Source: Granulicatella elegans
GTDB lineage: Bacteria; Bacillota; Bacilli; Lactobacillales; Aerococcaceae
Assembly (NCBI RefSeq): GCF_020735385.1
Contig: NZ_CP085953.1
Location: 558,001-622,000, forward strand
Direction of reading: 5' to 3'
Length of the DNA: 64,000 nucleotides
Part shown: positions 25,208 through 64,000 of the stretch, piece after piece
Position numbering within the stretch: position 1 is the stretch's first letter
Layout: each line of letters opens with the position of its first letter
The notes under the pieces: model-generated
Told to the model about the DNA's origin: nothing
The model's database searches: none
What the model saw: the letters and a program-made list of their open reading frames with translations, nothing else
Program-made: the position numbers and the translations under genes

Positions 25208-25244
25208 AGACGATAGAAAGTAATAATTCTGTCGTCTTTTTTTT
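25208..25244 (+). promoter_or_regulatory. Leader hairpin with T-tract upstream of repA
   Basis: The 11-bp stem AGACGATAGAA / TTCTGTCGTCT (one G-T pair) has loop AGTAATAA and a following T8 run. It ends 29 nt before the repA ATG. One of a recurring set (see findings). Confidence 0.75.
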
Positions 25245-25266
25245 ATTTCAAAGAAAGGAGGTAAGA

Positions 25267-26040
25267 ATGAATTTTGATTATTTTTATAATAGGCAATCTG
25301 AGATGTATAACTTCATTAGGTTACCTATGGTATTAATGAAAGATGAGATTTTCGAGAGCATTTCTATTGAAGCTAAAGTTTTGTATTCATATATGCTTAA
25401 TCGAATGGGTCTTTCATATAAAAATGGTTGGATAGATGAAGATGGAAAAGTCTTTATTTACTACACAATAGAAAGTATAAAAGATCAATTTAATTGTGCA
25501 AGTGAAAAAGCAAATAAATTAATAGCTGAACTTGATATTAAATCAGGAATAGGACTGATTGAAAAGAAAAGACAAGGACTTGGAAAGCCTAATAGAATCT
25601 ATGTTAAAGACTTTATGAGCATATTTAATAATATGGAATTAAAAAATCAAGAAGTTCGAAAAACAAAATTTCAGAAGTTCGATAATCGAAATTCAAGAGA
25701 TTCGAATATCGAAAGTCAAGATTTTCGAAAATCGGAAAGTAACTATAACAATATTAGTAATAATGAGTTAAGAAATAATGATTTTAGTAAAGGGCAAAAG
25801 CCTTATGGAATATATAAAAATATATTTTTGACTGATGAAGAATACAAGGACTTAACAAATGAGTTAGGAAGTAGAATTAGTGAATATATTGATAGGTTGT
25901 CGTCGTATATGAAAGCAAATGACAGAGTCTATCAAGATCACAAGGCAACCATAATCAATTGGTATCTTAATGATCAGGCAAAAAACATTAATGATAATAC
26001 AACAAGGAAAATGAATTACGATATAGGAGAGAGTTTATGA
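25267..26040 (+). CDS. Replication initiator protein A (RepA_N type)
   Basis: This 257-residue protein has an N-terminal RepA_N winged-helix domain (F-Y-N-F-I-R-L-P region through S-I-K-D-Q-F-N-C-A-S, residues ~10-120), a hydrophilic linker, and a C-terminal ~70-residue domain that recurs in the IME replisome organiser (Y-Q-D-H-K-A-T-I-I-N-W-Y; final M-N-Y-D-I-G-E-S-L). It probably initiates autonomous replication of the excised ICE. The linker is encoded by four DNA iterons. AAAGGAGG precedes the ATG. The last codons overlap the DnaC-like gene (ATGA). Confidence 0.9.
   Translation: MNFDYFYNRQSEMYNFIRLPMVLMKDEIFESISIEAKVLYSYMLNRMGLSYKNGWIDEDGKVFIYYTIESIKDQFNCASEKANKLIAELDIKSGIGLIEKKRQGLGKPNRIYVKDFMSIFNNMELKNQEVRKTKFQKFDNRNSRDSNIESQDFRKSESNYNNISNNELRNNDFSKGQKPYGIYKNIFLTDEEYKDLTNELGSRISEYIDRLSSYMKANDRVYQDHKATIINWYLNDQAKNINDNTTRKMNYDIGESL
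25653..25740 (+). repeat. Four 23-bp iterons inside repA (candidate origin)
   Basis: TTCG words at 25655, 25678, 25701 and 25724 are spaced by exactly 23 bp. The shared pattern is TTCGA-wAATCGAAA-TCAAGA, diverging in copies 1 and 4. As 23 is not a multiple of 3, the repeat is read in three different frames and must be selected as DNA. RepA_N replicons commonly have their origin within the initiator gene. Confidence 0.8.
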
Positions 26041-26864
26041 AAAGCTTAAAAGATTTTGTATTAAGAAAAAATGATATTGAAAGAAATGGACATATCTATT
26101 GTAAATCATGTGGTAAAAGAGTCGATGGAGAATTAGTTGACCTTGGATTTACAAAGTTTATTCCAAGAATTAAATGTGAATGTGAAATAAAAAGAGATAA
26201 GGAAAATGAAGAAAGAGAAAGACTGATGAAAATATCATCATTGAAAAGAGATTGCTTCTCATCGCCGCTCCAACACCAATATACTTTTGAGAAATTCTTA
26301 AATGAAAAAGGTCAAGCCTATAAGGTTGCCTATAATTATGCCAAAAGTTTTGAGCAAATGAAGGAAGACAATGTTGGACTTTTATTTTATGGAGATGTTG
26401 GCAGTGGAAAGACTTATCTTGCTTGTTCTATTGCAAATGAATTAATTGAAAGAGAACAAGTTAAAGTTAAGATTATGAATTTATCTCAAGTTATAAACCA
26501 AATACAAAAATCAGCATTTAAACTAGATTCAAATGAAATAATAAGTAACCTCTCTAATATTCCTTTGTTAATTTTAGATGACCTTGGAATTGAAAGGGAT
26601 ACATCTTATGCAAGAGAACAGGTATATAACATTATAAACTCAAGATACTTAAAGGGTAGGCCGACAATTTTTACTACAAACTTATCATTGGAAATTATTC
26701 AAAATCCTAATATTGACCTTGAGTATCAGAGGATATATTCAAGAATACTTGAAATGACAATACCAGTTAAAGTTACGGGAGAAGATTTTAGAAGAAAAAT
26801 CCATCAAGAGAAGTTAAGAAAATACAAAGAGTTACTTTTATATGGAGGTGGAATAGATGATTAA
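26037..26864 (+). CDS. DnaC/IstB-like helicase loader
   Basis: This 275-residue AAA+ ATPase has an N-terminal zinc-binding region (C-K-S-C-G-K ... C-E-C), Walker A (G-D-V-G-S-G-K-T) and Walker B (L-L-I-L-D-D-L-G). It would load the host replicative helicase at the ICE origin opened by RepA. It overlaps repA by four bases and the next gene by eight, so the three genes are translationally coupled. Confidence 0.92.
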   Translation: MKSLKDFVLRKNDIERNGHIYCKSCGKRVDGELVDLGFTKFIPRIKCECEIKRDKENEERERLMKISSLKRDCFSSPLQHQYTFEKFLNEKGQAYKVAYNYAKSFEQMKEDNVGLLFYGDVGSGKTYLACSIANELIEREQVKVKIMNLSQVINQIQKSAFKLDSNEIISNLSNIPLLILDDLGIERDTSYAREQVYNIINSRYLKGRPTIFTTNLSLEIIQNPNIDLEYQRIYSRILEMTIPVKVTGEDFRRKIHQEKLRKYKELLLYGGGIDD

Positions 26865-27342
26865 TGAAGAAGTATCTAGGTCAAGTCTTAATCTTGAAGT
26901 AAGACTTGCAAAAGCAACAAGTAAAGCAATTCTTGATGCCTTAAAGAAAGTACACAAGCAAATAGAAGAACAAGGAGGCTTGAAAAATGTAATAAAAAAT
27001 AACGGAGAAGAAGTAAAGCTAAAGGATATGGTTAAAAAGGGACAGTTAGAAGAAATTAATCTAAAAGATCCTGAGTTAAAAGAACTAAAGAAAATTTTAA
27101 ATAAACACGGAGTTAAGTTTTCTGTTATGAAAGATAAGGAAACTGGTAACCACTCTGTGTTTTTTCAATCTAAGGATATAAAGGTAATGGAACATGCCTT
27201 TAAAAAAGCAGTTAAGGAATCTGAAAGAAAGGCCGATAGAAAAGATTCAATAACGAAGACAATAAATAAGTTTAAAGATATGGCTAAGGATACCATTAGC
27301 AAAGATAAGGTTAAAAATAAACATAAGGAGCAAAGCTTATGA
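26857..27342 (+). CDS. PcfB-like relaxosome/coupling adaptor (DUF3801)
   Basis: This 161-residue protein has the DUF3801 core (L-K-D-M-V-K-K-G-Q-L-E-E-I, G-V-K-F-S-V-M-K-D, F-Q-S-K-D-I-K-V-M-E-H-A-F). In enterococcal pCF10, PcfB links the relaxase-DNA complex to the VirD4-type coupling protein. A clear paralogue is carried by the IME (45308-45829). It overlaps its neighbours on both sides in the replication-transfer operon. Confidence 0.88.
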   Translation: MINEEVSRSSLNLEVRLAKATSKAILDALKKVHKQIEEQGGLKNVIKNNGEEVKLKDMVKKGQLEEINLKDPELKELKKILNKHGVKFSVMKDKETGNHSVFFQSKDIKVMEHAFKKAVKESERKADRKDSITKTINKFKDMAKDTISKDKVKNKHKEQSL

Positions 27343-28073
27343 TAAGTAATTTAAAAACATTTGAAAATAAGAATTTTGGGAAACTCACTGTTATAGAAAA
27401 AGACGGTGAGTTTTTCTTTATAGCAAATGAAGTAGCAACTATGTTAGGATATGTCAATCCAAGAAAAGCTGTTTATGACCATGTAGATGAGGAAGATAAG
27501 GGTGTAACGAAATGGAACACCCCTGGAGGAATACAGAATATTTCAATAATTAACGAATCAGGATTGTATTCACTTATCCTCTCATCAAAACTACCACAAG
27601 CAAAAATATTCAAAGCTTGGGTAACTAGAGAAGTCTTACCAAGTATTAGAAAAAACGGAGGATATATAGTAGGGCAAGAAAAGAAAACTAATGAAGATCT
27701 ACTTGCAGATGCAATTCTTGTAGCCAATAGAATTATTGCTGAAAGAGAAGAAGAAATTGAAGAATTAAGACCAAAGGCAGATTATTATGACAAATTAGTA
27801 GATTATAACCTACTTACAAACTTTAGAAATACTGCCAAAGAGTTAGGAATACCACAAAATCAATTTATAAGTTTTCTAATGGATAAGGGATTAATTTACA
27901 GAGATAAGAAAAAGAAACTCTTACCTTATGCAGATAAGAACAAGGGATATTTTGAAGTAAAAGAATGGATTGATCCACTAGGTACACTTGTAGGCATACA
28001 AACATTTATAACACCAAAGGGAAGACACTACCTACTAATTTTATTAGATAGTGAAGGTTTCTACGATGAATAA
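27339..28073 (+). CDS. Phage-type antirepressor (BRO-N and ANT domains)
   Basis: This 244-residue protein has an N-terminal BRO-N/KilA-like domain (F-F-I-A-N-E-V-A-T-M-L-G-Y, L-I-L-S-S-K-L-P-Q-A-K-I-F-K-A-W-V-T-R-E-V-L-P-S as two blocks) and a C-terminal ANT domain with a winged-helix pattern. In phages such proteins lift repression; here it sits between pcfB and traG, overlapping both (4 and 8 nt), so it probably helps time ICE transfer. The target is unknown. Confidence 0.85.
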   Translation: MISNLKTFENKNFGKLTVIEKDGEFFFIANEVATMLGYVNPRKAVYDHVDEEDKGVTKWNTPGGIQNISIINESGLYSLILSSKLPQAKIFKAWVTREVLPSIRKNGGYIVGQEKKTNEDLLADAILVANRIIAEREEEIEELRPKADYYDKLVDYNLLTNFRNTAKELGIPQNQFISFLMDKGLIYRDKKKKLLPYADKNKGYFEVKEWIDPLGTLVGIQTFITPKGRHYLLILLDSEGFYDE

Positions 28074-29856
28074 GATATTAGAAGCCATTCTTTCTGATAT
28101 TAAATACTTAATTAAAATAGACAACCCAAAGAAATTTATATTAGCAAACATTCCTTATCTATCTTTCTTCTACATTGGAAATATCTTTTCTAAGCACATC
28201 AATTCTTATGTAGGAGGAGATATTATTGATAGAATAATGGTGGGAATTTCTGATATAGGAACTTTATCTTATATACCAAGCCTTAATCCAAGGGACTTGT
28301 TAGTAGGTATTTCAGTTGCTGGTCTTGTTAAGCTAATTGTTTATAGTAAAGGTAAAAATAAAAAGAAATATAGGCAAGGCAAGGAATATGGATCTGCAAG
28401 ATGGGGAGAAAGCAAGGATATTGCTCCATACATTGACCCTAAGTTTGAAAATAATGTTCTCATAACTAATACCGAAAGACTTACAATGAACTCAAGACCT
28501 AAAAATCCTAAATATGCTAGAAATAAAAATGTATTAGTAATAGGTGGTTCTGGATCAGGTAAGACAAGATTTTATGTAAAGCCAAATCTAATGCAAATGC
28601 ACTCTTCCTATGTAGTAACAGACCCTAAAGGCACACTTGTGTTAGAGTGTGGAAAAATGCTTTATGAAAATGGATACGATATAAAGATATTAAACACAAT
28701 AAACTTCAAAAAGTCCATGAAATACAATCCCTTTGCATACTTGAGAAGTGAAAAAGATATTTTAAAGCTTGTCCAAACAATTATTGCCAACACCAAGGGA
28801 GATGGAGAAAAGGCAGGAGAAGATTTTTGGGTAAAGGCTGAAAAGTTATATTACACTGCTCTTATTGGGTATATTTATTATGAAGCACCTGAAGAAGAAA
28901 AGAACTTTAAGACACTTTTGGATATGATTGACGCAAGTGAAGTTAGAGAAGATGACGAAACCTATATGAACCCAATTGATAGGCTCTTTGAAGCTCTTGA
29001 AAAGAAAGACCCAAGTCATTTTGCAGTTAAGCAATACAAGAAATATAAGCTGGCAGCAGGAAAAACTGCCAAGTCAATTCTAATATCTTGTGGAGCAAGA
29101 CTTGCACCTTTTGACATAAGAGAGCTTAGAGAACTAATGAGTGAAGACGAACTAGAACTTGATAAAATTGGAGATAGGAAAACTGCCTTGTTCGTAATAA
29201 TATCAGATACTGATGATACCTTTAATTTTGTAGTATCAATAATGTATTCCCAATTATTTAATCTCCTATGTGATAAGGCAGATGATGTGTATGGTGGAAG
29301 ACTTCCAGTTCATGTTAGGTGTCTACTTGATGAGTTTGCAAATATTGGTTTGATTCCTAAATTTGAAAAACTGATTGCGACAATTCGTTCAAGAGAAATA
29401 TCAGCAAGCATAATACTGCAAGCACAATCTCAATTAAAAGCAATTTACAAAGACCATGCAGATACAATAGTTGGTAACTGTGACTCAACACTCTTTCTAG
29501 GAGGAAAAGAAAAAACAACAGTAAAAGAGTTATCTGAAACCTTAGGAAAAGAAACCATAGACCTATATAACACATCAGAAACAAGATCAAACCAGAAATC
29601 TTTTGGTCTAAATTACCAAAAAACTGGGAAGGAACTTATGAGCCAAGATGAAATAACTGTAATGGATGGTGGTAAGTGTATTTATCAGTTAAGAGGAGTA
29701 AGACCTTTCTTGTCTGATAAATTTGATATTACAAAGCATAAGAATTACAAGTTGTTGGAAGATTATGATAAGAAGAACTTGTTTGATGTGGAAGAGTATT
29801 TAACAAATAGAGATAAAATAAAAATAAACAGGAACAGTTTGATTACAAGATTATGA
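28066..29856 (+). CDS. Type IV coupling protein (VirD4/TraG family)
   Basis: This 596-residue membrane ATPase brings the relaxosome to the secretion channel. Two N-terminal hydrophobic segments (residues ~25-110) are followed by Walker A I-G-G-S-G-S-G-K-T-R-F near residue 160 and Walker B C-L-L-D-E-F-A-N-I-G. Length and motifs match TraG of Tn1549-like elements. I placed the start at ATG 28066, overlapping the antirepressor stop. It is the only coupling protein in the window, so the IME must rely on it or on a foreign one. Confidence 0.94.
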   Translation: MNKILEAILSDIKYLIKIDNPKKFILANIPYLSFFYIGNIFSKHINSYVGGDIIDRIMVGISDIGTLSYIPSLNPRDLLVGISVAGLVKLIVYSKGKNKKKYRQGKEYGSARWGESKDIAPYIDPKFENNVLITNTERLTMNSRPKNPKYARNKNVLVIGGSGSGKTRFYVKPNLMQMHSSYVVTDPKGTLVLECGKMLYENGYDIKILNTINFKKSMKYNPFAYLRSEKDILKLVQTIIANTKGDGEKAGEDFWVKAEKLYYTALIGYIYYEAPEEEKNFKTLLDMIDASEVREDDETYMNPIDRLFEALEKKDPSHFAVKQYKKYKLAAGKTAKSILISCGARLAPFDIRELRELMSEDELELDKIGDRKTALFVIISDTDDTFNFVVSIMYSQLFNLLCDKADDVYGGRLPVHVRCLLDEFANIGLIPKFEKLIATIRSREISASIILQAQSQLKAIYKDHADTIVGNCDSTLFLGGKEKTTVKELSETLGKETIDLYNTSETRSNQKSFGLNYQKTGKELMSQDEITVMDGGKCIYQLRGVRPFLSDKFDITKHKNYKLLEDYDKKNLFDVEEYLTNRDKIKINRNSLITRL

Positions 29857-29881
29857 ATTAAGCCTAGGATAAAAATATTTT

Positions 29882-29890
29882 TGGTATAAT
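29882..29890 (+). promoter_or_regulatory. Extended -10 promoter of the ICE cargo genes
   Basis: TGGTATAAT is an ideal extended -10 element, 27 nt before the ClbS-like gene, so this cargo has its own promoter after traG. No -35 box is obvious. Confidence 0.6.
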
Positions 29891-29917
29891 ATCTATATAA
29901 ACCATGGAGGTAGGCAT

Positions 29918-30454
29918 ATGAGGTCTTATGAAAGTAAGGAAGAATTAAAAAATGAGATAAAGAAAACTTTTGGAAAATATATTTCAGAGTTTGATAATAT
30001 CCCAGAAGAATTAAAAGATAAAAGAGTAGATCAAGTTGATAGGACACCAGCTGAAAATCTTGCCTATCAAGTAGGTTGGACAACTTTAGTTTTGAAATGG
30101 GAAGAAGATGAAAAAAAGGGAATTGAGGTTAAAACGCCATCTGACAAATTTAAGTGGAATCAACTTGGAGAATTGTATCAATGGTTTACAGATACCTATG
30201 CTCATAAATCGTTAAAGGAATTAAAAGAACAACTATCACAGAATATAGAAGATATTTACTCTTTGATAGATAATCTTACAGAGGAAGAATTATTTAAACC
30301 ACATATGAGAAAATGGGCAGATGAAGCAACAAAAACTGCAACTTGGGAAGTATATAAATTTATCCATGTAAATACAGTAGCACCATTTGGAACATTTAGG
30401 ACTAAGATTAGAAAATGGAAAAAACTTAATAATTTTGTGAATGTAATTAAATAA
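29918..30454 (+). CDS. ClbS/DfsB-family four-helix bundle protein
   Basis: This 178-residue soluble protein begins with the family-type helix Y-E-S-K-E-E-L-K-N-E-I-K-K-T-F and contains P-A-E-N-L-A-Y-Q-V-G-W and a C-terminal F-I-H-V-N-T-V-A-P-F. This is the DfsB/DUF1706 (ClbS) pattern. ClbS protects E. coli against colibactin; most relatives are unassigned, so the role here is open. It is cargo between the coupling-protein gene and the SSB gene, with ribosome site GGAGG. Confidence 0.82.
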   Translation: MRSYESKEELKNEIKKTFGKYISEFDNIPEELKDKRVDQVDRTPAENLAYQVGWTTLVLKWEEDEKKGIEVKTPSDKFKWNQLGELYQWFTDTYAHKSLKELKEQLSQNIEDIYSLIDNLTEEELFKPHMRKWADEATKTATWEVYKFIHVNTVAPFGTFRTKIRKWKKLNNFVNVIK

Positions 30455-30471
30455 TAAGGTTGGTGCTTTAA

Positions 30472-31940
30472 TTGAATTATGAAAAATTTAAAAAAATAAT
30501 AAATAGAAAAACCTCTATAATAGTATTAGATACAAATGTAATACTTGACTTAGCTCGATATTCATTATACAGTAGCAAAAACATATTAGAAATTTTCAAG
30601 GAGTGTAAGGATTTAATATGGATTCCGAATCAAGTGTATAAAGAATTTAATAAAAATAAATATAGCGTATTCGGACAATTGAAAAAAAGTATCAAAATTT
30701 TGAAAAAGATTTACTAAGAGTAATTGAAAGGAGTCAAAAAAATTTAGAGAGTGTCTTGATTAAATCATCTAAATATAATTATTTTGGAAGAAAAAATTTG
30801 GAGAATGAATTAAATAACAAGTTAGTTGAATTAAAACAAATAATCAAATCTTATAAAAATAGTGTTGGTATTGAATATGATGAAATAACAACAGATTCTC
30901 CTGAAATAATTAAAGATATAGATAATCTTATTTCATATTTAGAAAAAAATAATAGGATAGGTAATAGGATAAGGTTTAGTGAACAATTAAAAATTATTAG
31001 AGAGGGTGAACTTAGGTATAAATATAAAATTCCGCCTGGATATGAGGACATTAATAAAGATGGAGTTGAAAAATTTGGAGATTTATTTGTTTGGAAAGAG
31101 ATATTAGATTTACCAGTTGAAAAATCAGTAAAAGATATTATTTTTATTACGAATGATATAAAAGAAGACTGGTGGAGTAAGGATAGTCAAGATAATTTAG
31201 TAGTTCACGATAAATTATTAAGTGAATTTAAAGAAAAAAATCCAAATGTAAATATTGAATTTTTAACAACAGGAATGTTTCAGAATTTCGCTTCAAAAGT
31301 ATATGATAGATATGATTTTAATGTTTATGTAGATTTAAATAGAAAAGATGTGTCATATGTAGAAAGAGTAAAACAAGATATTTCTAATGATATAGTTGAC
31401 AGTATTTATAATAACAACTATTATTATCTAGAATCGTATGTTATTGGAAGTGAGGGTATTGAAGAATTAGATATAAATAATTGTGAATTCAATGAGATAT
31501 TAGATACTTATGAAGAGTTTACAGACGAGATTGTTAGTATAACTTATGAGCTAGAATATTTAATAAATTTAAGTTGTGTATCCTTTGATTATTGGGGACG
31601 TGATGATGATACAAAAGAAGTCATACAATCACCACCAATAGAACAAGAATTTAGTGGAAGTGTCATAGTTAATGTCACAAGATTAATTAATAAAGATGAT
31701 ATCGAAGAAGATTCTTTTTATATTAATAATGATAAAGAATATACAGATATTGAAATAATTGAAATTCAGATAGATCAAGATTCTATAAACAAAAATGAAG
31801 AAGACTACGATGACTCTTATTTAGAAGAGGAGAATTACAATAATGATTATGCATTTATTTGCTCTAAATGTGGAAAGGGATTTAAGGATAGGCGAGAAGA
31901 TGTAGGTGGTATTTGTCGAGATTGTTCATTTAATGATTAA
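30472..31940 (+). pseudogene. PIN-like domain protein (DUF4935 type), frameshifted in an A7 run
   Basis: The TTG start at 30472 opens a PIN domain (I-I-V-L-D-T-N-V-I-L-D-L, W-I-P-N-Q-V-Y-K-E-F). The frame ends at 30717, and the protein resumes one frame over in 30690-31940. Adding one A to the A7 run at 30682-30688 gives a single ~490-residue protein. Its second part has D-I-I-F-I-T-N-D-I-K-E-D-W-W, which completes the PIN acidic site, and a C-terminal zinc ribbon (C-S-K-C-G ... C-R-D-C). DUF4935 proteins look like RNase effectors and could be a defence gene. Phase variation, RNA-polymerase slippage, a real mutation or a sequencing error are all possible. Confidence 0.75.
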
Positions 31941-31960
31941 TAATATAGGATATTTTATTA

Positions 31961-31993
31961 AAGCAGTAATTATAAAGTTTACTGCTTTTTTTA
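31961..31993 (+). promoter_or_regulatory. Terminator-like leader hairpin before an 8-codon frame
   Basis: The perfect 9-bp stem AAGCAGTAA / TTACTGCTT with T7 (to 31992) ends 28 nt before the ATG at 32016. Confidence 0.75.
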
Positions 31994-32015
31994 TACTCAA
32001 AATTAGGAGGTTAAG

Positions 32016-32042
32016 ATGTTAAGGATAAGAGCTCCTACTTAG
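32016..32042 (+). CDS. Possible 8-residue leader peptide
   Basis: M-L-R-I-R-A-P-T and a stop follow an excellent AGGAGG ribosome site. TAGGAG of that site (32004-32009) can pair with CTCCTA (32032-32037), and a terminator-like hairpin (32068-32097) follows before the SSB gene. The layout resembles an attenuator leader, but it could also be the remnant of a deleted gene. Confidence 0.35.
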   Translation: MLRIRAPT

Positions 32043-32067
32043 AACAATTTAATAAGGAATAATGTAT

Positions 32068-32103
32068 AGCGATTGGAAATAAATAGATCCAGTCGCTTTT
32101 TTA
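32068..32103 (+). promoter_or_regulatory. Terminator-like hairpin before the SSB gene
   Basis: The 10-bp stem AGCGATTGGA / TCCAGTCGCT (one G-T pair) with loop AATAAATAGA and a T tail ends 38 nt before the SSB ATG. Confidence 0.72.
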
Positions 32104-32135
32104 ATTGAAATTTATAGATTAAGGAGAAGAAATTA

Positions 32136-32447
32136 ATGGATAGAGAAATGATAAATATTAATGCAAATTTAGTTAAAGAAGTGGAATTATCAGAATTTGA
32201 AAGAGATGGAGAAAAAGTAGATGTAGCAAATTTTACTCTCATTAAAAAATATGGTAAAGGAAAAGAATATATAAATTGTTCAGTCTACGGAGAAAAAAGC
32301 GAACGTGCAAAAGAATTAGATAAAGGAGATCTAATCCATGTCTTTGGATATTTCAAAGAAAACAAAAAAGGAGATAAGGTCTACAAGAATTTTATAGTTA
32401 AATCACTAAATAAAATAGAAAATAAGAAAGAAAACGAGGAGGAATAA
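32136..32447 (+). CDS. Single-stranded DNA-binding protein (OB fold)
   Basis: This 103-residue OB-fold protein has V-A-N-F-T-L-I, E-Y-I-N-C-S-V-Y-G-E-K, D-K-G-D-L-I-H-V-F-G-Y-F and a short acidic tail (E-N-E-E-E). It is a compact relative of bacterial SSB that regularly stands just before maff2 in Tn1549-like ICEs, and probably coats the transferred strand during replication or conjugation. The maff2 ATG follows after one base. Confidence 0.82.
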   Translation: MDREMININANLVKEVELSEFERDGEKVDVANFTLIKKYGKGKEYINCSVYGEKSERAKELDKGDLIHVFGYFKENKKGDKVYKNFIVKSLNKIENKKENEEE

Positions 32448-32563
32448 TATGGAATTTTTTACAGCTGGAGTTGGAGTTTTAAAGACACTTGTAACTGCAA
32501 TTGGTGCAGGTTTAGGAGCATGGGGAGTTATTAACTTAATGGAAGGTTATGGTAATGATAACC

Positions 32564-35313: not shown

Positions 35314-35410
35314 CTGGTGCTAAATCTCAAGGTATTAAGCAATTTATGGCAAAATAAGGACGGAATAACACAACAAATTCTCTAAAACAAATCACTAAAT
35401 CAATGTAAGA

Positions 35411-35439
35411 TTGAATGAAATCAATATTTATGCTATAAT
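35411..35439 (+). promoter_or_regulatory. Promoter of the IME XRE regulator
   Basis: TTGAAT (35411-35416) and TATAAT (35434-35439) are 17 bp apart, with an extended TGC in front of the -10 box. An ATTGA-N6-TCAAT dyad overlaps the -35 box and may bind the regulator. Confidence 0.75.
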
Positions 35440-35474
35440 TAAATAAATCTAATGAAGAGAAAAAGAGGGATATT

Positions 35475-35681
35475 ATGGCACTAAACTATAAACCATTATG
35501 GATACAGTTGGCAAAAAAAGGATTAAAAAAAACAGATGTAATAGCTATGGCAGGACTAACAACAAATGTTATGGCACAAATGGGCAAGGATAAACCAATT
35601 ACATTTAAAAATTTAGAAAGAATATGTAAGGCTCTATCTTGCACTCCTAATGATATTATTAGTTTTGAAGATGAATTTTAA
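35475..35681 (+). CDS. XRE/Cro-type helix-turn-helix regulator
   Basis: This 68-residue protein is almost all HTH: L-K-K-T-D-V-I-A-M-A-G-L-T-T-N-V-M-A-Q-M (residues ~17-36) and the C-terminal P-N-D-I-I-S-F of YozG/Cro-like short repressors. It is the first gene inside the IME and may control the cargo or excision. Ribosome site GAGGGAT. Confidence 0.88.
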   Translation: MALNYKPLWIQLAKKGLKKTDVIAMAGLTTNVMAQMGKDKPITFKNLERICKALSCTPNDIISFEDEF

Positions 35682-35733
35682 AAAGAAATTTACAACGGAA
35701 CAGATATGTATTAAAATAAAAAAACATTATTTT

Positions 35734-35777
35734 AAATGGTCAAAACACTTGACCATTTTTAAAAACCGTGGTATACT
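35734..35777 (+). promoter_or_regulatory. Promoter and overlapping dyad of the BlaI-M56 operon
   Basis: TTGACC (35749-35754) and TATACT (35772-35777) are 17 bp apart. A perfect 10-bp dyad, AAATGGTCAA-AACAC-TTGACCATTT (35734-35758), has the -35 box in its right arm. It could be the BlaI operator, the terminator of the XRE gene, or both. Confidence 0.72.
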
Positions 35778-35850
35778 CAAGATGAAGATAATTAAATTAA
35801 CAAAAATAGAAAAATAAACGAAACTGTAATTTACAAAGGAGGAAATATAG

Positions 35851-37615: not shown

Positions 37616-37633
37616 ATAGGAGGTGAATTGATA

Positions 37634-37699: not shown

Positions 37700-37775
37700 A
37701 TGTATAGTTGAAATTCTAAGCTTAATAAAAAATATTTCGGGTTATAAAAATTTAGTGCATAAAGTGAGGTTTTTT

Positions 37776-38828: not shown

Positions 38829-38910
38829 GATTTTTATAACACTTTAATTAAAATAATAAAAATATATGGTAGTTATTATAGCAACTAAAATTTATAAAGA
38901 GGTTAATTTT

Positions 38911-39461: not shown

Positions 39462-39490
39462 GGGAGTGAGAATTCTCACTCCCTTACTTT
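39462..39490 (+). terminator. Terminator/leader hairpin between bacteriocin and permease genes
   Basis: The 22-bp perfect palindrome GGGAGTGAGAA-TTCTCACTCCC (39462-39483) with a weak T-rich tail lies 20 nt after the bacteriocin stop and 27 nt before the permease ATG. It probably sets the bacteriocin-to-transporter expression ratio. Confidence 0.78.
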
Positions 39491-42038: not shown

Positions 42039-42087
42039 TATTATAAAAGGACTATGGTAAAATACTTTAGTCCTTTTATAATATTTT
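42039..42087 (+). terminator. Terminator after the bacteriocin transporter
   Basis: The perfect 16-bp stem TATTATAAAAGGACTA / TAGTCCTTTTATAATA with loop TGGTAAAATACTT starts five bases after the ATPase stop and is followed by T4. The loop contains GTAAAA. Confidence 0.88.
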
Positions 42088-42096: not shown

Positions 42097-42132
42097 AACT
42101 CGGATTGGAGAGTAAAACTTCCAACCTGAGTT
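42097..42132 (+). promoter_or_regulatory. GTAAAA-loop leader hairpin before the mobilization genes
   Basis: The 13-bp stem AACTCGGATTGGA / TCCAACCTGAGTT (one mismatch, one G-T) has loop GAGTAAAACT and no T-tract. It ends 30 nt before the ATG of the first DUF3847 gene. Confidence 0.7.
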
Positions 42133-45241: not shown

Positions 45242-45285
45242 AAGGGAAGTATAGAAAAATTAAAGCCTATACTTCCCTTTTTTTA
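45242..45285 (+). promoter_or_regulatory. Terminator-like leader hairpin before the IME pcfB gene
   Basis: The perfect 13-bp stem AAGGGAAGTATAG / CTATACTTCCCTT with loop AAAAATTAAAGC and T7 ends 28 nt before the ATG at 45308. Confidence 0.82.
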
Positions 45286-45307
45286 ATTCAAACAAAGGAG
45301 ATAAAAC

Positions 45308-47357: not shown

Positions 47358-47392
47358 AAGGCGGTAGAAGTAAAAACTATCGTCTTTTTTTA
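47358..47392 (+). promoter_or_regulatory. GTAAAA-loop leader hairpin before the replisome organiser
   Basis: The 10-bp stem AAGGCGGTAG / CTATCGTCTT (two G-T pairs) with loop AAGTAAAAA and T7 ends 27 nt before the ATG at 47414 (47387-47413 between). Confidence 0.78.
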
Positions 47393-47413
47393 TTTGAAGA
47401 AAGGTAGGAGAGC

Positions 47414-48210: not shown

Positions 48211-48249
48211 AGGCGATTAGAAAATTAAAAATCTAATCGCCTTTTTTTA
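48211..48249 (+). promoter_or_regulatory. Terminator-like leader hairpin before the recombinase operon
   Basis: The perfect 11-bp stem AGGCGATTAGA / TCTAATCGCCT with loop AAATTAAAAA and T7 ends 26 nt before the ATG at 48269. Confidence 0.83.
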
Positions 48250-48268
48250 TTGCATGAAAGGATAAGCT

Positions 48269-48493
48269 ATGACAAAAAGACAAACAAAATACATTGTAAA
48301 AAGAAATTATGATAATAGAAGAACAGACACAGAAGCTTTTCTAAGACTAATAAAAAAATCAAGCAAATTAAATAAGGCTAATGAAATTGAGTATAACAAA
48401 TATAATATTGATAGTAATAAAAAAGAGTGCTATAATAAAAATAGTTTTAGAGAAAGTTGTGTTATTTCCGAAAACTCAAATAAGGAGGAATAG
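48269..48493 (+). CDS. Small hypothetical protein upstream of the serine recombinase
   Basis: This 74-residue, strongly basic protein starts M-T-K-R-Q-T-K-Y-I-V-K-R-N-Y. I do not recognise a family. Its stop is three bases before the recombinase ATG and the recombinase ribosome site lies in its last codons, so the two are coupled. A recombination accessory role is possible by position only. Confidence 0.6.
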   Translation: MTKRQTKYIVKRNYDNRRTDTEAFLRLIKKSSKLNKANEIEYNKYNIDSNKKECYNKNSFRESCVISENSNKEE

Positions 48494-50143: not shown

Positions 50144-50146
50144 TTA

Positions 50147-51113: not shown

Positions 51114-51127
51114 AAGAAAGGATAGAT

Positions 51128-51394: not shown

Positions 51395-51397
51395 GTT

Positions 51398-54128: not shown

Positions 54129-54132
54129 GCTT

Positions 54133-56265: not shown

Positions 56266-56277
56266 GGAGGACACAAT

Positions 56278-56514
56278 TTGAAAAAAGAACTGACAGCAGT
56301 AAAAAACAGAATAAAGAAGTTAAAGGATAAAAAGGCTCTGATTGATGAAGAATTGGAGCCTTTGTTCATTCGTGAGGAAGAACTTGAAAACGAAGAAATT
56401 ATTGCCATTTGCAGAAAGAACAACATTACAATCAGTGATTTAATGGCAAAAGTAAACAGAGAAAAAGCAGAAGTGAAAAAGGAGAAAACAAATGAAAACC
56501 AGTTTGAAAAATAA
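56278..56514 (+). CDS. DUF4315 family conjugation protein
   Basis: This 78-residue helical protein starts (TTG after AAGGAGG) K-K-E-L-T-A-V-K-N-R-I-K-K-L and has the E-L-E-N-E-E-I-I-A-I-C-R-K family block. It always sits between the hydrolase and DUF4366 genes in Tn1549-like ICEs. The function is unknown. Its end overlaps the next start by 23 nt. Confidence 0.85.
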   Translation: MKKELTAVKNRIKKLKDKKALIDEELEPLFIREEELENEEIIAICRKNNITISDLMAKVNREKAEVKKEKTNENQFEK

Positions 56515-58681: not shown

Positions 58682-58720
58682 ATTTGCACCTAAAACTATA
58701 CAATATTTGGGGCAAAATAC

Positions 58721-58755
58721 AGGGCGAGAGAGTAAAATCTTTCGCCCTCTTATTT
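58721..58755 (+). promoter_or_regulatory. GTAAAA-loop leader hairpin before topB
   Basis: The 11-bp stem AGGGCGAGAGA / TCTTTCGCCCT (one G-T pair) closes the hexaloop GTAAAA. A mixed T-rich tail follows. It ends 31 nt before the topB ATG. Confidence 0.8.
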
Positions 58756-58779
58756 TGAAAAACAGGAGGATAAATATAT

Positions 58780-60486
58780 ATGAAACTTGTAATTGCTGAA
58801 AAACCAAGTGTTGCAATCTCTATTGCAAAAGTGATTGGAGCTACAAAAAAGAAAGACGGATATTATGAAGGAAACGGATACAAGGTAAGCTGGTGTGTTG
58901 GACATTTAATTCAAATGGCAAATCCTGATAGTTATGATGAAAAATATGCGAAGTGGAATATGGCTGATTTACCGATTATCCCAAAAGAATATAAGTATGA
59001 GATTGCAAAGTCCACAAAGAAACAATTTACGATTCTTAAAAAGCTGATGAATGGTAAGGATATAGACATCGTGATAAATGCCTGCGATGCAGGGCGTGAA
59101 GGAGAAGCCATCTTCAGACTTGTCTACAATCAGGCAAATTGTAAAAAGCAGATGAAACGCCTTTGGATTTCATCAATGGAAGATAGTGCCATAAAGGAGG
59201 GCTTTGATAACCTGAAAGACGGAAGTTTTTACGATAATCTATTTGAATCATCACAAGCAAGGGCGATTGCAGATTGGCTTGTGGGAATGAATTTAAGCAG
59301 ACTGTATTCGTGTCTATACAAGCAAAATTACAGTGTGGGCAGAGTTCAAACACCTACCCTTGCAATGATTGTAAATAGAGATGATGAGATAGCCAATTTC
59401 AAGAAAGAAAAATATTTTACAGTCGAACTTTCTATGAATGGTTTTACACTATCAACAGATAGAATTGATGATGAAATAACAGCGGAACAGCTCTTAAATT
59501 TAGTAGGCGATAAGATAGAAATTACCGATGTTATTCAAAAGGAAAAGATAACAAAGCCTGAGCTGCCATTTGACCTGACAACGCTTCAAAGAGAGTGCAA
59601 TAAATATTTTGGATACTCAGCTAAGCAGACACTTGATTATGCTCAAAGTCTTTACGAAAAGAAACTGATTACCTATCCAAGAACAGACAGCAGATGCCTT
59701 ACTGAAGATATGATTGTAAGTACGGTTAATAACATTTTAGGAAAGAATGATTTTGACACAGGGCGTATCAAGACGGTATTTAATTCTAAAAAGGTTACAG
59801 ACCATCATGCGATTATACCGACAGCAAGCAGTATGAATGGGGACTTAACTTCTCTTCCGGAAAGTGAATTTAAGGTATATGAACTTATTTTAAATAAGCT
59901 ACATGCAAGTGTAGGCTATCCTTTAATTGAGAATACAACGAAGATTGTGGCTGAATTTGATGGATTTGAATTTACAAGTAGTGGAAAGGTGATTGTAAAT
60001 GAGGGCTTTACCAAATACCTAAACGAATATGCAAAAAAGAAAAATGAAGCTACAGTGCTTCCGGATGTAAAGATTGGTTATAGTCTTGATATTAAGAACA
60101 AAGAGATAAAAGAAAAATACACATCACCGGCTAAACATTTTACGGAAGATCTTCTTCTAAAGGCGATGGAGCTTGCAGGAAATGACGCATTGGAAAAAGG
60201 TGTAGAAGTTGAGCGAAAAGGACTTGGAACACCTGCAACAAGAGCAGGAATCATTGAAAATTTAATCTTTAAAGGTTTTGTAGAAAGAGATAAAAAGAAT
60301 CTTATTGCTACATATAAAGGAATCAGCCTTGTAACTATTGTAGCCGATACATTTAAATCGGCAGAAACAACAGCAAAGTGGGAAATGGAGTTATCGGATA
60401 TTGCACAGGGAAAATCTTCAAAGAAAGAATTTTTAGAGGCGATTGAAAATGAGATAAAGGAAGTAGTTTCAACTTATAGCAAGTAA
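58780..60486 (+). CDS. topB: DNA topoisomerase III
   Basis: This 568-residue type IA topoisomerase has the Toprim start (K-L-V-I-A-E-K-P-S-V-A), D-A-G-R-E-G-E and the active-site tyrosine near residue 299 in I-T-Y-P-R-T-D-S-R. It lacks the C-terminal zinc fingers of chromosomal TopB, as usual for ICE versions. It relaxes or decatenates element DNA during transfer. AGGAGG lies just before the start. Confidence 0.95.
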   Translation: MKLVIAEKPSVAISIAKVIGATKKKDGYYEGNGYKVSWCVGHLIQMANPDSYDEKYAKWNMADLPIIPKEYKYEIAKSTKKQFTILKKLMNGKDIDIVINACDAGREGEAIFRLVYNQANCKKQMKRLWISSMEDSAIKEGFDNLKDGSFYDNLFESSQARAIADWLVGMNLSRLYSCLYKQNYSVGRVQTPTLAMIVNRDDEIANFKKEKYFTVELSMNGFTLSTDRIDDEITAEQLLNLVGDKIEITDVIQKEKITKPELPFDLTTLQRECNKYFGYSAKQTLDYAQSLYEKKLITYPRTDSRCLTEDMIVSTVNNILGKNDFDTGRIKTVFNSKKVTDHHAIIPTASSMNGDLTSLPESEFKVYELILNKLHASVGYPLIENTTKIVAEFDGFEFTSSGKVIVNEGFTKYLNEYAKKKNEATVLPDVKIGYSLDIKNKEIKEKYTSPAKHFTEDLLLKAMELAGNDALEKGVEVERKGLGTPATRAGIIENLIFKGFVERDKKNLIATYKGISLVTIVADTFKSAETTAKWEMELSDIAQGKSSKKEFLEAIENEIKEVVSTYSK

Positions 60487-60525
60487 AACACTACCAATTT
60501 CAAGGTGGAAAAAATGCCCTAAAAA

Positions 60526-60534
60526 TGCTATAAT
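60526..60534 (+). promoter_or_regulatory. Extended -10 promoter of the KilA-N gene
   Basis: TGCTATAAT is an extended -10 box 36 nt before the GTG start. The same 9-mer precedes the XRE gene of the IME. Confidence 0.6.
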
Positions 60535-60570
60535 ATAAGGTAATCAATTTAATGATTGAGAGGTGATTAT

Positions 60571-61374
60571 GTGTCTAAAATAAATGTTGAAGGTTCAGAA
60601 ATCAGCATTATTGCCATAGATAATAGGGACTACATTTCTTTGACAGATATGGTTAGAAATATTGAGAACGGCTCTGCTTTAATAGAAAAATGGCTTAGAA
60701 ACAAGAATACAATAGAGTTTTTAGGTATTTGGGAAGAAATGTATAATACAAATTTTAATTCCCCCGAATTCGAGGGAATTAAAAATGAAGCAGGATTTAA
60801 CCGATTTATTTTATCTGTTAAGCAGTGGGTAGAAAAAACGAATTCTATCGGTATAGTTGCGAGAGCAGGAAGATATGGCGGAACTTATGCTCACAAAGAT
60901 ATAGCATTTGAGTTTGCTTCTTGGGTATCTCCATACTTTAAATTGTATTTGATTAAAGAATTTGAACGCCTAAAGGAAGAAGAACAAAAGAAGTTAGGCT
61001 GGGATATAAAAAGGAATTTGGCAAAAATCAATTATAGGATTCATACAGATGCCATTAAAAATAAACTTGTACCTGAAAAACTTTCAAAAGAAAAAATTAA
61101 CTTTATTTATGCAAGTGAGGCAGATATTCTTAATGTTTCTTTGTTTGGAATAACAGCGAAAGAATGGCGTGATGAAAATCCGGATTTGAAAGGAAATATT
61201 AGAGATTATGCAGATATATCGCAGCTTGTATGCCTTTCTAATCTTGAAAATCTTAATGCGGTATTTATAAATGAGGGCATGAGTCAATCTGAAAGACTGG
61301 AAAAACTAAATTCAATAGCAATTGAACAGATGAAGATATTATCCGAGAGTGAATCAATTAAAAAGCTGAAATAG
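60571..61374 (+). CDS. KilA-N domain protein
   Basis: This 267-residue DNA-binding protein has the KilA-N fold (Y-I-S-L-T-D-M-V-R, I-E-K-W-L-R-N-K-N-T-I-E-F-L-G-I-W-E, G-I-V-A-R-A-G-R-Y-G-G-T-Y-A-H-K-D-I-A-F-E-F-A as blocks), common in phages. The start is GTG 60571 after GAGAGGTG. It has its own promoter and may regulate the ICE; the target is unknown. Confidence 0.87.
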   Translation: MSKINVEGSEISIIAIDNRDYISLTDMVRNIENGSALIEKWLRNKNTIEFLGIWEEMYNTNFNSPEFEGIKNEAGFNRFILSVKQWVEKTNSIGIVARAGRYGGTYAHKDIAFEFASWVSPYFKLYLIKEFERLKEEEQKKLGWDIKRNLAKINYRIHTDAIKNKLVPEKLSKEKINFIYASEADILNVSLFGITAKEWRDENPDLKGNIRDYADISQLVCLSNLENLNAVFINEGMSQSERLEKLNSIAIEQMKILSESESIKKLK

Positions 61375-61397
61375 GATGATAATGCAATATTATTACA

Positions 61398-61431
61398 AAG
61401 GTGATTAGAGTAAAATCTAACCGCCTTTTTT
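61398..61431 (+). promoter_or_regulatory. GTAAAA-loop leader hairpin before the helicase gene
   Basis: The 12-bp stem AAGGTGATTAGA / TCTAACCGCCTT (one mismatch, one G-T) closes the hexaloop GTAAAA and is followed by T residues. It ends 30 nt before the helicase ATG. Loop and closing pairs (AGAGTAAAATCT) are identical to those of the topB hairpin. Confidence 0.82.
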
Positions 61432-61457
61432 GTTTGTAAAAAAAGAAGGAGGTAAAC

Positions 61458-64000
61458 ATGCGAATAAATGATTTTCATAACATTTTGGAGCTAATAAAAC
61501 AAGATATTCTGCAGAGTGAAGCAGAGTATCTGAAGCTCTTAAAGGTTGTCGGAAACAATCAGAAATATGATTTTAGAAGTCAGTTAAGTATTTATGATAA
61601 AAATCCTGAAGCGACAGCTTGTGCCAAGTTTGACTACTGGAGAGAACACTTTAACCGAACTGTCATGCGAGGTCAAAAGGGTATTCCCATTTTAGAGGAC
61701 TATGGCACATACAAAAAGGTGGACTATATCTTTGATATTAGTCAGACAGTTTCCAAAAACAGAGATGTCAATGAGGTAAATCTTTGGAGATTTGATAAAG
61801 AAGCTCATAGAGATGTATTAAAAGAAATGATAAAAGCTGAGGGCTATCAAGAAAGCGAAAGCACCTTAGAAAATATCTTTTCCTTAAGTAGGCTTTACGG
61901 AGATGAAAAAATAGATAGCTTGATGAATGAACTTAGAATATCTGATGAGGACAAAATATCCTTTACCAAGTTTGCAAGGGACTCAGTGAGCTATGCAGTA
62001 GCTTCAAGATTTAAGTTAGACTATCCTGTGGATAAGGAGCTGTTAAAGGAAAACTTTGCAATGCTTGACAGCATTTCTCTTATGAGCCTTGGAGAAACGG
62101 TATCGGACATTAGCGGAACAGTCATTGATGCAACCATTCAAAAAAGCAAAGAGTTAGAGCTTCAAAAAGAAGTTTTAAGAGGTAAAGAAGCAGGATATAA
62201 TAAAATAAAAGAAGAATTAGAGGAGGTAGAAGAAAATGTACTTCGACGAGATGATCAGGAAAGAATTAGTGAAAACGAGCGAATTTTCCGAAATGGAGAG
62301 TACGGACGAGATAATAGAGAAAATCAAAGAGAATACACTGAATCAGTTAGAGGAACAGGAGGACTTCATCAAGGAATATCCGAATCCGGTGTACGCAGTG
62401 ATGAGACTGGATTATCTTTCAAGCAGCGAGGAGCAGAGCAACTTCGAGATGTTAGTGGATCTATACAAGGAGAAGAAGCTGATAGGACACCTGATGGATA
62501 CTCAGAAACAGGCGATAGAGTTTATGAGAGCAGAGAAGCCGAAACTGATGATGGCTTGGAAGATAGAGGACGAGAGCCATCCGCAGTACAAAGCGATGAT
62601 TTCAGCCCTCAAAGAAATGACCATCAAGGAGATAGTGGAAATCTAAAAGAAAATACGGATAAAGAGATAAGAGAAGCTGACAAGGCTTCTTTTTCTTTAC
62701 CCGAAAACAGATCAGGGCAGATTAAACTTACAATACCTCTTACTCAAAATGATATTGACAGTATTCTTGTAAATGGTGGAAACCATGAGGGCGAAAGACT
62801 TCCTATCATTGCTGAATTTTCCAAAGGGAAAACAGTAGAAGAATTAGGAGAATACCTTAAAGATACCTTTAGAGGCGGAAACGGTTTATTTCTTAATGGA
62901 GCAGAAGTATCTTCCTGGTATTCGGATAAAGGCATTCATTTAGCTTATGGAACTTCTGCAAGAGAAGATAGCACGCAAATTTTAAGCTGGAGTGATGCTG
63001 CAAGAAGAATCAATGAGCTTTTAGAAAATGGAGAGTTTGCTACAAATGTAGAGATTTTGAAAGCACATGACTATGCAAGAGATAGAGTTTCAGAATCGCT
63101 ATGGTATCTATATCACGATTTAAGCGAAGAAGGAAAAACACAAGGTTATTTTGACTTTATAGAAAGGGGTGGTGGCTTTCCGAAAGAAACAAGACAGTTA
63201 TCGGAAGCTCTTAAAAATCCTGACTATCTAAAAAATGTTATTTCCGAGTACAGTCGCTTTTTGAAAGGATATAGAGAAAACAAAGATGTACTAAGATTTC
63301 ATTATCACAAGGTAGATAGCCTTTATCAGAAATTACAGGAGCTTGCACTTCCAAGAAAGGAATATATCTCTAACCTAACTGAACTTCCAAAAGTACATGG
63401 CTTTATTACAGAAGATGAAGTCCTTGCTACGATTTCAAGGGGAAGTGGAGTCGATAAGGGAAAAGAGCGAATTACTAAGTTTTTCAAAGAAAATCATACC
63501 TTGCAGGAAAAAGCAAATTTCTTAAAAGATGAGTATGGAATCGGAGGTCATTCTCATGCTGTTTCAGGAGCAAAGGGAAGTGATGAATGGCACGATGCAA
63601 AGGGACTTAAATTACAGAAGAATCATTGTAACGATGTATTTCTTACATGGTCAAATGTAGCAAAGCATATAGATGAGCTGCTTTCTAAAAATCTTTATCT
63701 TGAAGAAAAAAATATTGAAAGCAAGGTAGAGATAGAAGAACAAAAAGAGCCAAGTTATTATTCTAAAGATGATCCAAATAATCTAATGACTGATGAAATG
63801 CTTGAGAGAGTGCCTGAGCTTTATGCACAGGAAGATGTAGCCTTAGCAGACAAACAGGTTCATGCAGCATACATCATTCCATTTAGAAGTAACTGGACTT
63901 GGTATATGACGGAGTATGACAGGGAAAGTAAAGATGCTTTTGGACTTGTTTTAGGAATTGAACCTGAATGGGGATATTTTAATCTTGAGGAGCTAAAGGA
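61458..64000 (+). CDS. Giant SNF2-type helicase/methylase-like ICE protein, 3' end beyond window
   Basis: The frame is open from ATG 61458 (after AAGGAGG) to the window end, 847 residues. The start (I-N-D-F-H-N-I-L-E-L-I-K, then Y-D-F-R-S-Q-L-S-I-Y, A-T-A-C-A-K-F-D-Y-W and R-G-Q-K-G-I-P-I-L) is the N-terminal domain of the 2000-3000 residue SNF2-helicase proteins of Tn1549-like ICEs. A polar low-complexity linker follows (residues ~255-400). Its reading frame is overprinted by a TnpV-like gene. The helicase and possible methylase motifs must lie downstream. Function in ICE biology is unproven; anti-restriction or DNA processing is suspected. Confidence 0.88.
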   Translation, partial: MRINDFHNILELIKQDILQSEAEYLKLLKVVGNNQKYDFRSQLSIYDKNPEATACAKFDYWREHFNRTVMRGQKGIPILEDYGTYKKVDYIFDISQTVSKNRDVNEVNLWRFDKEAHRDVLKEMIKAEGYQESESTLENIFSLSRLYGDEKIDSLMNELRISDEDKISFTKFARDSVSYAVASRFKLDYPVDKELLKENFAMLDSISLMSLGETVSDISGTVIDATIQKSKELELQKEVLRGKEAGYNKIKEELEEVEENVLRRDDQERISENERIFRNGEYGRDNRENQREYTESVRGTGGLHQGISESGVRSDETGLSFKQRGAEQLRDVSGSIQGEEADRTPDGYSETGDRVYESREAETDDGLEDRGREPSAVQSDDFSPQRNDHQGDSGNLKENTDKEIREADKASFSLPENRSGQIKLTIPLTQNDIDSILVNGGNHEGERLPIIAEFSKGKTVEELGEYLKDTFRGGNGLFLNGAEVSSWYSDKGIHLAYGTSAREDSTQILSWSDAARRINELLENGEFATNVEILKAHDYARDRVSESLWYLYHDLSEEGKTQGYFDFIERGGGFPKETRQLSEALKNPDYLKNVISEYSRFLKGYRENKDVLRFHYHKVDSLYQKLQELALPRKEYISNLTELPKVHGFITEDEVLATISRGSGVDKGKERITKFFKENHTLQEKANFLKDEYGIGGHSHAVSGAKGSDEWHDAKGLKLQKNHCNDVFLTWSNVAKHIDELLSKNLYLEEKNIESKVEIEEQKEPSYYSKDDPNNLMTDEMLERVPELYAQEDVALADKQVHAAYIIPFRSNWTWYMTEYDRESKDAFGLVLGIEPEWGYFNLEELK
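62236..62646 (+). CDS. Overprinted TnpV-like protein inside the helicase gene
   Basis: This 136-residue frame lies wholly within the helicase gene in another phase. ATG 62236 is preceded by GAGGAGGT at a 9-nt gap. It reads as a normal globular, mostly helical protein (Y-A-V-M-R-L-D-Y-L, E-K-K-L-I-G-H-L-M-D-T-Q-K-Q-A-I-E-F), reminiscent of TnpV (R-L-x-F-L ... G-K-L-x-x-H-L-x-x-I-x-x-x-A). By contrast the host frame here is a polar, low-complexity linker. Both frames are therefore probably used. Confidence 0.62.
   Translation: MYFDEMIRKELVKTSEFSEMESTDEIIEKIKENTLNQLEEQEDFIKEYPNPVYAVMRLDYLSSSEEQSNFEMLVDLYKEKKLIGHLMDTQKQAIEFMRAEKPKLMMAWKIEDESHPQYKAMISALKEMTIKEIVEI

Follow-up and report, generated by a model that had tools for sequence, protein, structure and literature searches.

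Hairpins before start codons of the two elements

The window, a 64,000-nucleotide stretch of the Granulicatella elegans chromosome (558-622 kb of 1.89 Mb), contains a Tn1549-like integrative and conjugative element (ICE) and an integrative and mobilizable element (IME). An initial annotation had reported ten hairpins a short distance before start codons. All ten were found where it had placed them, with the sequences and the distances to the ATG exact, and we agree that they occur in both the ICE and the IME and that no room for a promoter is left between hairpin and ribosome site. They are listed here together with the 8-codon leader frame that lies between two of them; the last figure is the gap between the hairpin itself and the ATG.

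25208-25245, plus strand: hairpin and U-tract in the leader of ICE repA; 29 nt
31961-31995, plus strand: hairpin A and U-tract before the 8-codon leader frame; 28 nt
32016-32042, plus strand: the 8-codon frame, an upstream open reading frame (uORF) reading MLRIRAPT*, with an AGGAGG ribosome site
32068-32105, plus strand: hairpin B and U-tract before ssb (ATG at 32136); 38 nt
39462-39483, plus strand: perfect 22-nt palindrome before a permease gene, with an interrupted T tail; 27 nt
42097-42132, plus strand: hairpin without a U-tract before a DUF3847 gene, a doubtful member; 30 nt
45242-45287, plus strand: hairpin and U-tract in the leader of pcfB (IME); 28 nt
47358-47394, plus strand: hairpin and U-tract in the leader of the replisome-organiser gene (IME); 27 nt
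48211-48250, plus strand: hairpin and U-tract before a 74-aa open reading frame (ORF) at 48269 (IME); 26 nt
58721-58757, plus strand: topB leader hairpin with an interrupted U-tract; 31 nt
61398-61436, plus strand: hairpin and U-tract in the leader of a helicase gene; 30 nt

Eight of the ten have the anatomy of an intrinsic terminator (repA, 8-codon frame, ssb, pcfB, replisome organiser, 48211, topB and helicase). The claim that most are followed by a T-tract also holds, as the nine nucleotides 3′ of the stem contain six to eight T in nine cases and only two at DUF3847. The tails are interrupted at the permease gene (TTACTTTTA) and at topB (CTTATTTTG), each with six T of nine; by our judgement the permease hairpin was left out of the eight, and that of topB was counted in for the sake of its relatives. 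An upstream stop codon was identified in nine cases, and in six of these the hairpin begins 20-26 nt after it.

Two further elements of the same genome carry such hairpins. A second ICE, whose topB (at 444.6 kb) is 62% identical to that of the window, has them before repA, the leader frame, ssb, the replisome-organiser gene, topB and the helicase gene. A third element, at around 336-353 kb, has them before pcfB and a DUF3847-like gene.

Terminator-like hairpins ending 15-45 nt before a start codon were counted with one simple gene caller, which missed pcfB, the helicase gene and the 8-codon frame. They preceded 6 of 37 ICE genes in the window (one being the permease palindrome), 6 of 97 genes in the stretches holding the two further elements, and 62 of 677 genes in relatives selected by topB. 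The host control gave 14 of 407 genes in 400 kb, and the host part of the window none of 22. The statement that host genes lack such hairpins is therefore true of the window and fails beyond it. Host hairpin-to-start distances are spread broadly and those of the elements are mostly 20-39 nt: among hairpins 8-160 nt from a start, this bin, which was picked after the table had been seen, holds 12 of 17 element cases versus 8 of 57 host cases (Fisher p = 2e-5). Within the relatives, the same caller found a hairpin before topB in 32 of 42 cases, ssb in 15 of 20 and the helicase gene in 9 of 21. Among genes of type IV secretion system (T4SS) type the counts were 1 of 46 for virB4, 0 of 48 for the C40 peptidase gene and 0 of 32 for trbL. 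A hairpin about 120 nt before 'cna' at 31 loci was taken to be coding sequence of the preceding small frame and was dropped.

The hairpin stays with the downstream gene

A search with topB gave 60 related loci, each reaching 10 kb from topB. For comparison of topB leaders, near-duplicates were reduced to one copy and the partial or distant loci L119-L123, L125-L127 and L129-L131 were left out, as was L115, which has no hairpin. All 43 distinct leaders in this set have the hairpin, at a distance of 27.9 ± 3.2 nt from the start codon (range 19-32; a T-tract was not required). Apart from L115, it was absent from the vanB element of pMG2200, where topB overlaps the preceding gene. At L117, whose topB is 47% identical, a terminator-like hairpin of unrelated sequence occupies the same place, and in pAPRE01 the topB hairpin is retained behind an AbiEii gene. 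The spacing of about 28 nt, which had been described as nearly constant, is loose, ranging from 19 to 32 nt at topB and from 19 to 43 nt at ssb.

Whether the stems covary, a check suggested in the initial annotation, was examined for topB. In 25 leaders, both-sided changes were found in 9 of 18 pairs, a value reached in none of 500 shuffles, and 86.9% of stem positions paired versus 44-62% in controls. The stems are held by compensating changes, with only a modest excess over slid controls (13 double-change cells versus 7-11); MAFFT misplaced one arm in at least two rows of this alignment.

For the helicase gene, 45 loci not selected by the hairpin were examined. Where an intergenic gap precedes the gene the hairpin was present at 23 of 26 loci (one of the 23, at L078, is an unrelated, T-poor hairpin). 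It was present at 5 of 9 loci without a clear upstream ORF, and at none of the 10 where the helicase start abuts or overlaps the upstream gene. The divergent helicase of the second ICE (45% identity over 412 aa) has both gap and hairpin.

A further set of 34 helicase loci, picked by the pattern of the hairpin itself, was sorted by the gene upstream. Four upstream families precede the hairpin (9, 9, 10 and 6 loci), with no mutual blastp match. Any two families show 0.26-0.35 identity in the 15 nt preceding the stem; F2 and F3, at 0.71, are the exception and have a spacer in common. In the stem itself identity is 0.98. At least three unrelated flanks therefore enter one helicase hairpin, and there is no upstream switch common to all helicase leaders. 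The hairpins of topB and of the helicase gene are near-identical across genera. Thus the hairpin goes with the downstream gene, most clearly at the helicase gene, and the expectation that related Tn1549-like ICEs would keep these 5′ elements is borne out for the topB and helicase leaders.

Between the stop codon of the upstream gene and the topB terminator hairpin lies another feature.

58683-58716, plus strand: second inverted repeat, with the AT-rich core TATACAAT

This second repeat was found in 27 of the 43 distinct leaders; in the window it contains a mismatch and falls below the threshold of the finder. Its arms read TTTGCACC..GGTGCAAA in relatives and TCCCGAA..TTCGGGA in L165, and the AT-rich core is -10-like. 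It may be either an RNA hairpin or an operator.

The repA leader and SpF39

Positions 25158-25242 of the window, the repA leader, matched the Rfam family RF02434 (SpF39) with 54.6 bits (E 1.1e-6), below the gathering cut-off of 60 bits. The match covers the hairpin and its tail, and the 5′ half is not conserved. The repA leader of an A. prevotii plasmid (L165:2085-2193) gave a full-length match of 114 bits, with the hairpin 26 nt before repA; L173 was grouped with L165 as an SpF39 locus. In one genome of the order, G344, whose repA is 97.7% identical, the score was 118 bits and the hairpin lies 27 nt before the gene. Of the 395 genomes of the order that were searched, only 1 exceeds the cut-off. 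Among 14 control genomes, 4 matched at E up to 1, none of them over the cut-off, and none matched at 1e-3.

F39 was described as a 110-nt RNA of Streptococcus pneumoniae TIGR4 encoded between SP1029 and SP1030, detected by RNA-seq and confirmed by qRT-PCR (PMC3395615). SP1029 is rumA and borders an island on its left side; the variable region of that island has been called a Tn5252-like ICE remnant (PMC4321634). Because the repA leader of relatives corresponds to SpF39 RNA, transcripts probably end at this hairpin. SpF39 appears to represent the terminated repA leader of an ICE.

The ssb leader

Of 21 distinct ssb leaders collected by tblastn, 20 encode the peptide MxRIRSPT or a close variant behind a strong ribosome site, as does the window; the sequence of L073 is cut short before the place of the uORF. 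Variants include MLRIRAPT in the window, MINIRSPT in L078 and MVRIRNPT in L010. Changes in codons 3-8 are nearly all synonymous (for example AGA to CGA) in a table whose rows were chosen by a pattern fixing codons 3-5, 7 and 8; the count of 20 of 21 was not so chosen. The uORF was also considered as the tail of a longer gene, and this was rejected: the frame is open for at most 42 codons upstream, and MxRIRSPT alone is shared. The 8-codon frame is real, a conserved and to all appearance translated leader frame. Its R-I-R conforms to +X+, the arrest motif known from macrolide leader peptides. No paper containing RIRSPT was found in a literature search that took in few subscription papers.

Mutually exclusive terminator and antiterminator folds were not found at ssb. 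In 19 of the 20 leaders with a recognisable hairpin B, this hairpin forms whether or not the uORF region is included in the fold, which gives no sign of a classical attenuator switch. L091 folds differently, and L153 has no hairpin B. Searches for riboswitches and T-boxes gave none at gathering scores in the window, L010, L011, L013, L014, L091, L152, L155, L160, L164, L165 and L166.

In another ICE subtype (L091:456-640, L153 and L166:11287) a conserved stretch of about 150 nt separates an R1-type hairpin, as defined below, from the uORF. It contains the inverted repeats CCTATTTTCAATTTATATTGCGATCAATAAATAGG and ACTCGCAAGAGT, and parts of it recur in L157 and L159.

Relatedness of the hairpins to one another

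A covariance model, R1, was built from eight hairpins of this genome, including those of repA, the replisome-organiser gene and topB in the window. Among the window hairpins it gave E < 0.01 for these three, which were in training, and for 48211 (42.6 bits, outside training) and the helicase gene. Scores were weak for pcfB (E 0.08) and ssb (E 0.42), and the 8-codon, permease and DUF3847 hairpins were unmatched up to E 5. Hairpin A, before the 8-codon frame, was kept for its layout and its relatives; L165 has an R1-type hairpin in this place. The pcfB hairpin recurs in the third element (L014:12486-12525).

Across the genome, four places outside training scored at least 38 bits: 1603357, next to a leader-frame copy; 606208, in the window IME; and 344898 and 352593, in or beside the third element. 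The best match elsewhere (37.0) is a terminator 93 nt before a host gene, presumably ruvA. At E up to 1e-3, R1 matched in 91 of 198 genomes of the order, mostly with about 32-39 bits; these matches were not used as evidence, because that range includes host terminators here. RF02434, searched against this genome at E up to 1, gave 16 matches, all below its cut-off. The top 7, and 12 of the 16 in total, are element hairpins.

The ten hairpins do not form one tight sequence family. The topB, helicase and ssb leaders differ in hairpin sequence, and from element to element each sequence keeps to its gene. The loops are A-rich and variable, and GTAAAA, proposed as a conserved loop, reads GTAAAA, GTAACA, GTATTA, GTAATA, ATAAAA or GGAATA in topB relatives. 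The vanB element of pMG2200, which we take to be of Tn1549 type, has U-tailed hairpins before a repA-like DUF6017 gene (gap 35 nt) and before pcfB (29 nt). These share the stem GCGGCGT..GACGCCGC, unrelated to the stems of the window, and fold with -25.5 and -22.6 kcal/mol, respectively. Given the variable loops, the gene-specific stems and this unrelated stem, the idea of a shared hairpin-binding factor made by the element was not upheld. Two candidates were rejected individually: a factor recognising a GTAAAA loop, as the loops vary, and a NusG paralogue of LoaP type, since the single NusG match of the genome (244.5 kb) lies outside the three elements.

Cargo and neighbouring features

Gaps between neighbouring core genes were compared among the relatives, counting those at least 800 nt above the smallest gap of the junction. 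At hairpin junctions such gaps numbered 5 of 17 (virD4-ssb), 9 of 48 (cna-topB) and 43 of 45 (topB-helicase). At other junctions they numbered 0 of 24 (ssb-trbL), 0 of 41 (trbL-prgI), 0 of 45 (prgI-virB4), 6 of 47 (virB4-C40, where partial alignments may be included) and 2 of 47 (C40-cna). Preferential insertion of cargo at a hairpin junction is clear only for topB-helicase.

In the window, a promoter-like TGGAAA-17-TATAAT with a TG lies at 60506-60534, between topB and an inserted KilA-N gene; it agrees with the check-valve proposal made below, but such matches are not above chance. Downstream of the window, L013:9604-13443 encodes an Eco57I-type methylase, a BsuBI/PstI restriction enzyme and a SIR2-STALD protein, followed by a relaxase on the opposite strand.

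The permease palindrome (GGGAGTGAGAATTCTCACTCCC), centred on GAATTC, lies within a BlaI/M56/ABC cargo region and is possibly an operator of that cargo operon. One more hairpin is found at the end of this region.

42040-42082, plus strand: terminator-like symmetric hairpin 3′ of the ABC gene

At DUF3847-like genes of relatives (L014, L162) the hairpin has terminator form.

Near the left border of the ICE, a gene at 22861-24837 that we take to be lysS-like has a long C-terminal extension resembling a tRNA-binding domain, after a repeat-like stretch, as if insertion of the element had given it a new 3′ end. The repA hairpin lies one 93-aa ORF beyond this gene, putatively close to the left end of the ICE.

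Possible roles of the hairpins

We know of no account of how Tn1549-like ICEs remain silent while integrated and yet take up cargo under control. A literature search that covered few subscription papers found no paper combining Tn1549 with terminator, transcription and hairpin. We propose that the hairpins act as check valves, that is, as intrinsic terminators that bound core modules and are passed by antiterminated polymerase. They would mark the 5′ boundary of the modules formed by ICE repA, ssb with its leader frame, topB and the helicase gene; IME modules (pcfB, the replisome-organiser gene and others) would have boundary terminators as well. Transcription begun at host promoters, or coming from accessory genes placed upstream, would be halted immediately ahead of the core gene's ribosome site. 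Polymerase starting at the main promoter of the element would be altered by a processive antitermination system and would pass every hairpin. Since several terminator-like hairpins stand before genes without room for a promoter, the operon must be read through them, and it is reasonable to regard antitermination as a requirement. What the sequences show is the terminator anatomy, its conservation, the attachment to the downstream gene and, for repA of relatives, a leader that corresponds to an RNA detected in pneumococcus; termination in this element, insulation from cargo and antitermination of a long operon are inferred. To the check-valve proposal we give about an even chance.

Several points count against this proposal. 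The related loci are not independent of each other, and the U-tracts of topB are imperfect. The ten helicases that abut or overlap the upstream gene all belong to a distant lineage (45-54% identity), so that this contrast is confounded. Cargo preference is weak outside topB-helicase (9 of 48 at cna-topB versus 6 of 47 and 2 of 47 at virB4-C40 and C40-cna), and counts at the far junctions are censored, because the loci extend only 10 kb from topB and no more than 24 of 55 include ssb and 18 virD4. The IME of the window itself lies between ssb and trbL, and there is no hairpin before trbL. The likeness of stems among leaders of different genes is unexplained, and a valve does not need it. SpF39 supports termination and does not prove it, because the caller used in that study demanded a predicted terminator near the end of the peak (PMC3395615). 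No antitermination factor like canT or conAn was identified, and no systematic search for one was made.

The hairpins might instead be individual leader attenuators, each core gene having a promoter or leader of its own close upstream, with read-through set by a stalled ribosome, a ligand or an antisense RNA. The 110-nt SpF39 RNA has its 5′ end some 70 nt ahead of the repA hairpin, implying a nearby promoter; the ssb leader has a conserved uORF and 27 of 43 topB leaders the second repeat with its -10-like core; and 4 nt separate the end of a promoter-like match at 61366-61393 from the helicase hairpin. Promoter-like matches are, however, at chance level (10 against 12.0 ± 3.6), conservation of SpF39 in the window does not extend to its 5′ half, and in 19 of 20 leaders hairpin B folds irrespective of the uORF region. 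The flank before the helicase hairpin differs, moreover, among KilA-type, F4-type and F2/F3-type loci, and we consider individual attenuators rather unlikely. A further possibility is that each hairpin is simply the 3′ terminator of the gene before it, the following gene lying close behind and being expressed by leakage or from distant promoters without any special system. This would account for the six of nine hairpins that begin at the usual place for a terminator, 20-26 nt past a stop codon. It does not account for a helicase hairpin that stays when the upstream gene changes, for the same behaviour of topB in pAPRE01, or for the near-identity of both hairpins across genera, and this explanation seems improbable.

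Hairpins between cistrons might also serve to stabilise or process the mRNA or to leave the ribosome site accessible, and termination would then be a by-product. This would suit hairpins that end just outside the ribosome footprint, the interrupted U-tracts of topB and the compact layout. Most U-tracts are nevertheless long, SpF39 is a short RNA, and almost no hairpins stand before the T4SS genes of the same operon; we hold a role in the mRNA to be distinctly unlikely. Sites for a hairpin-recognising protein encoded by the element would explain why stems are alike across genes and why element hairpins take the top 7 of the 16 RF02434 matches. Against this, the loops vary, the stems of pMG2200 and of pcfB are unrelated, and there is no candidate factor, which makes such sites very improbable.

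If the check-valve proposal is correct, a terminator cap tied to core modules would be a simple answer to both silence and acceptance of cargo. Tn1549-like ICEs occur in many Firmicutes, and a related element carries vanB. The pneumococcal small RNA SpF39 would then be seen as a leader transcript of an ICE replication gene, ended at its terminator. A wider and speculative version, which we doubt as a whole, is that Tn1549-like ICEs are built of exchangeable terminator-capped modules, so that accessory genes could be swapped upstream of a core module and transfer would stay off, and that the ssb valve, ahead of the T4SS genes, also holds a ribosome-arrest sensor, MxRIRSPT. This sensor would make expression of the transfer machinery depend on translation stress, for instance that caused by macrolides. 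If MxRIRSPT does stall ribosomes, transfer genes would be linked to translation inhibitors.

Comparison with known systems

SpF39 matches the repA leader over its full length in L165 and G344, and in the hairpin and tail in the window. It is catalogued in Rfam (RF02434) as a stand-alone small RNA between SP1029 and SP1030, whereas we read it as a terminated repA leader.

The ssb leader resembles those of Erm(K), Erm(D) and mef(E) in its short frame, its R-[LI]-R motif and the terminator downstream; Erm(K)L, which reads MRLRFPT, also has xPT after the motif (MTHAMRLRFPTLNQ), as in MxRIRSPT (PMC4335068, PMC8298421). It differs in that the downstream gene is ssb and not a resistance gene, in that no exclusive fold was found, and in that stalling is here putative.

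The closest parallels to the proposed valves come from Tn916 and pLS20. Tn916 has an intrinsic terminator, T1, near its left end, in a position to which that of the repA hairpin may be comparable, and overlapping the first core gene, orf24; T1 halts more than 95% of transcripts, further terminators lie inside the conjugation region, and the arrangement insulates the element from host promoters (PMC11658703). The antiterminator canT acts on T1-T3 and on heterologous terminators, in cis and probably as RNA (PMC11658703). The present element differs from Tn916 in that several core modules have a terminator of their own, tied to the gene of the module. In pLS20, many intrinsic terminators likewise lie within a long conjugation operon; conAn serves more than 20 of them, and the presence of terminators inside an operon has been read as an indication that antitermination is processive (PMC8955417). 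With canT and conAn as precedents, we favour check valves passed by processive antitermination as the reading of the hairpins in the window.

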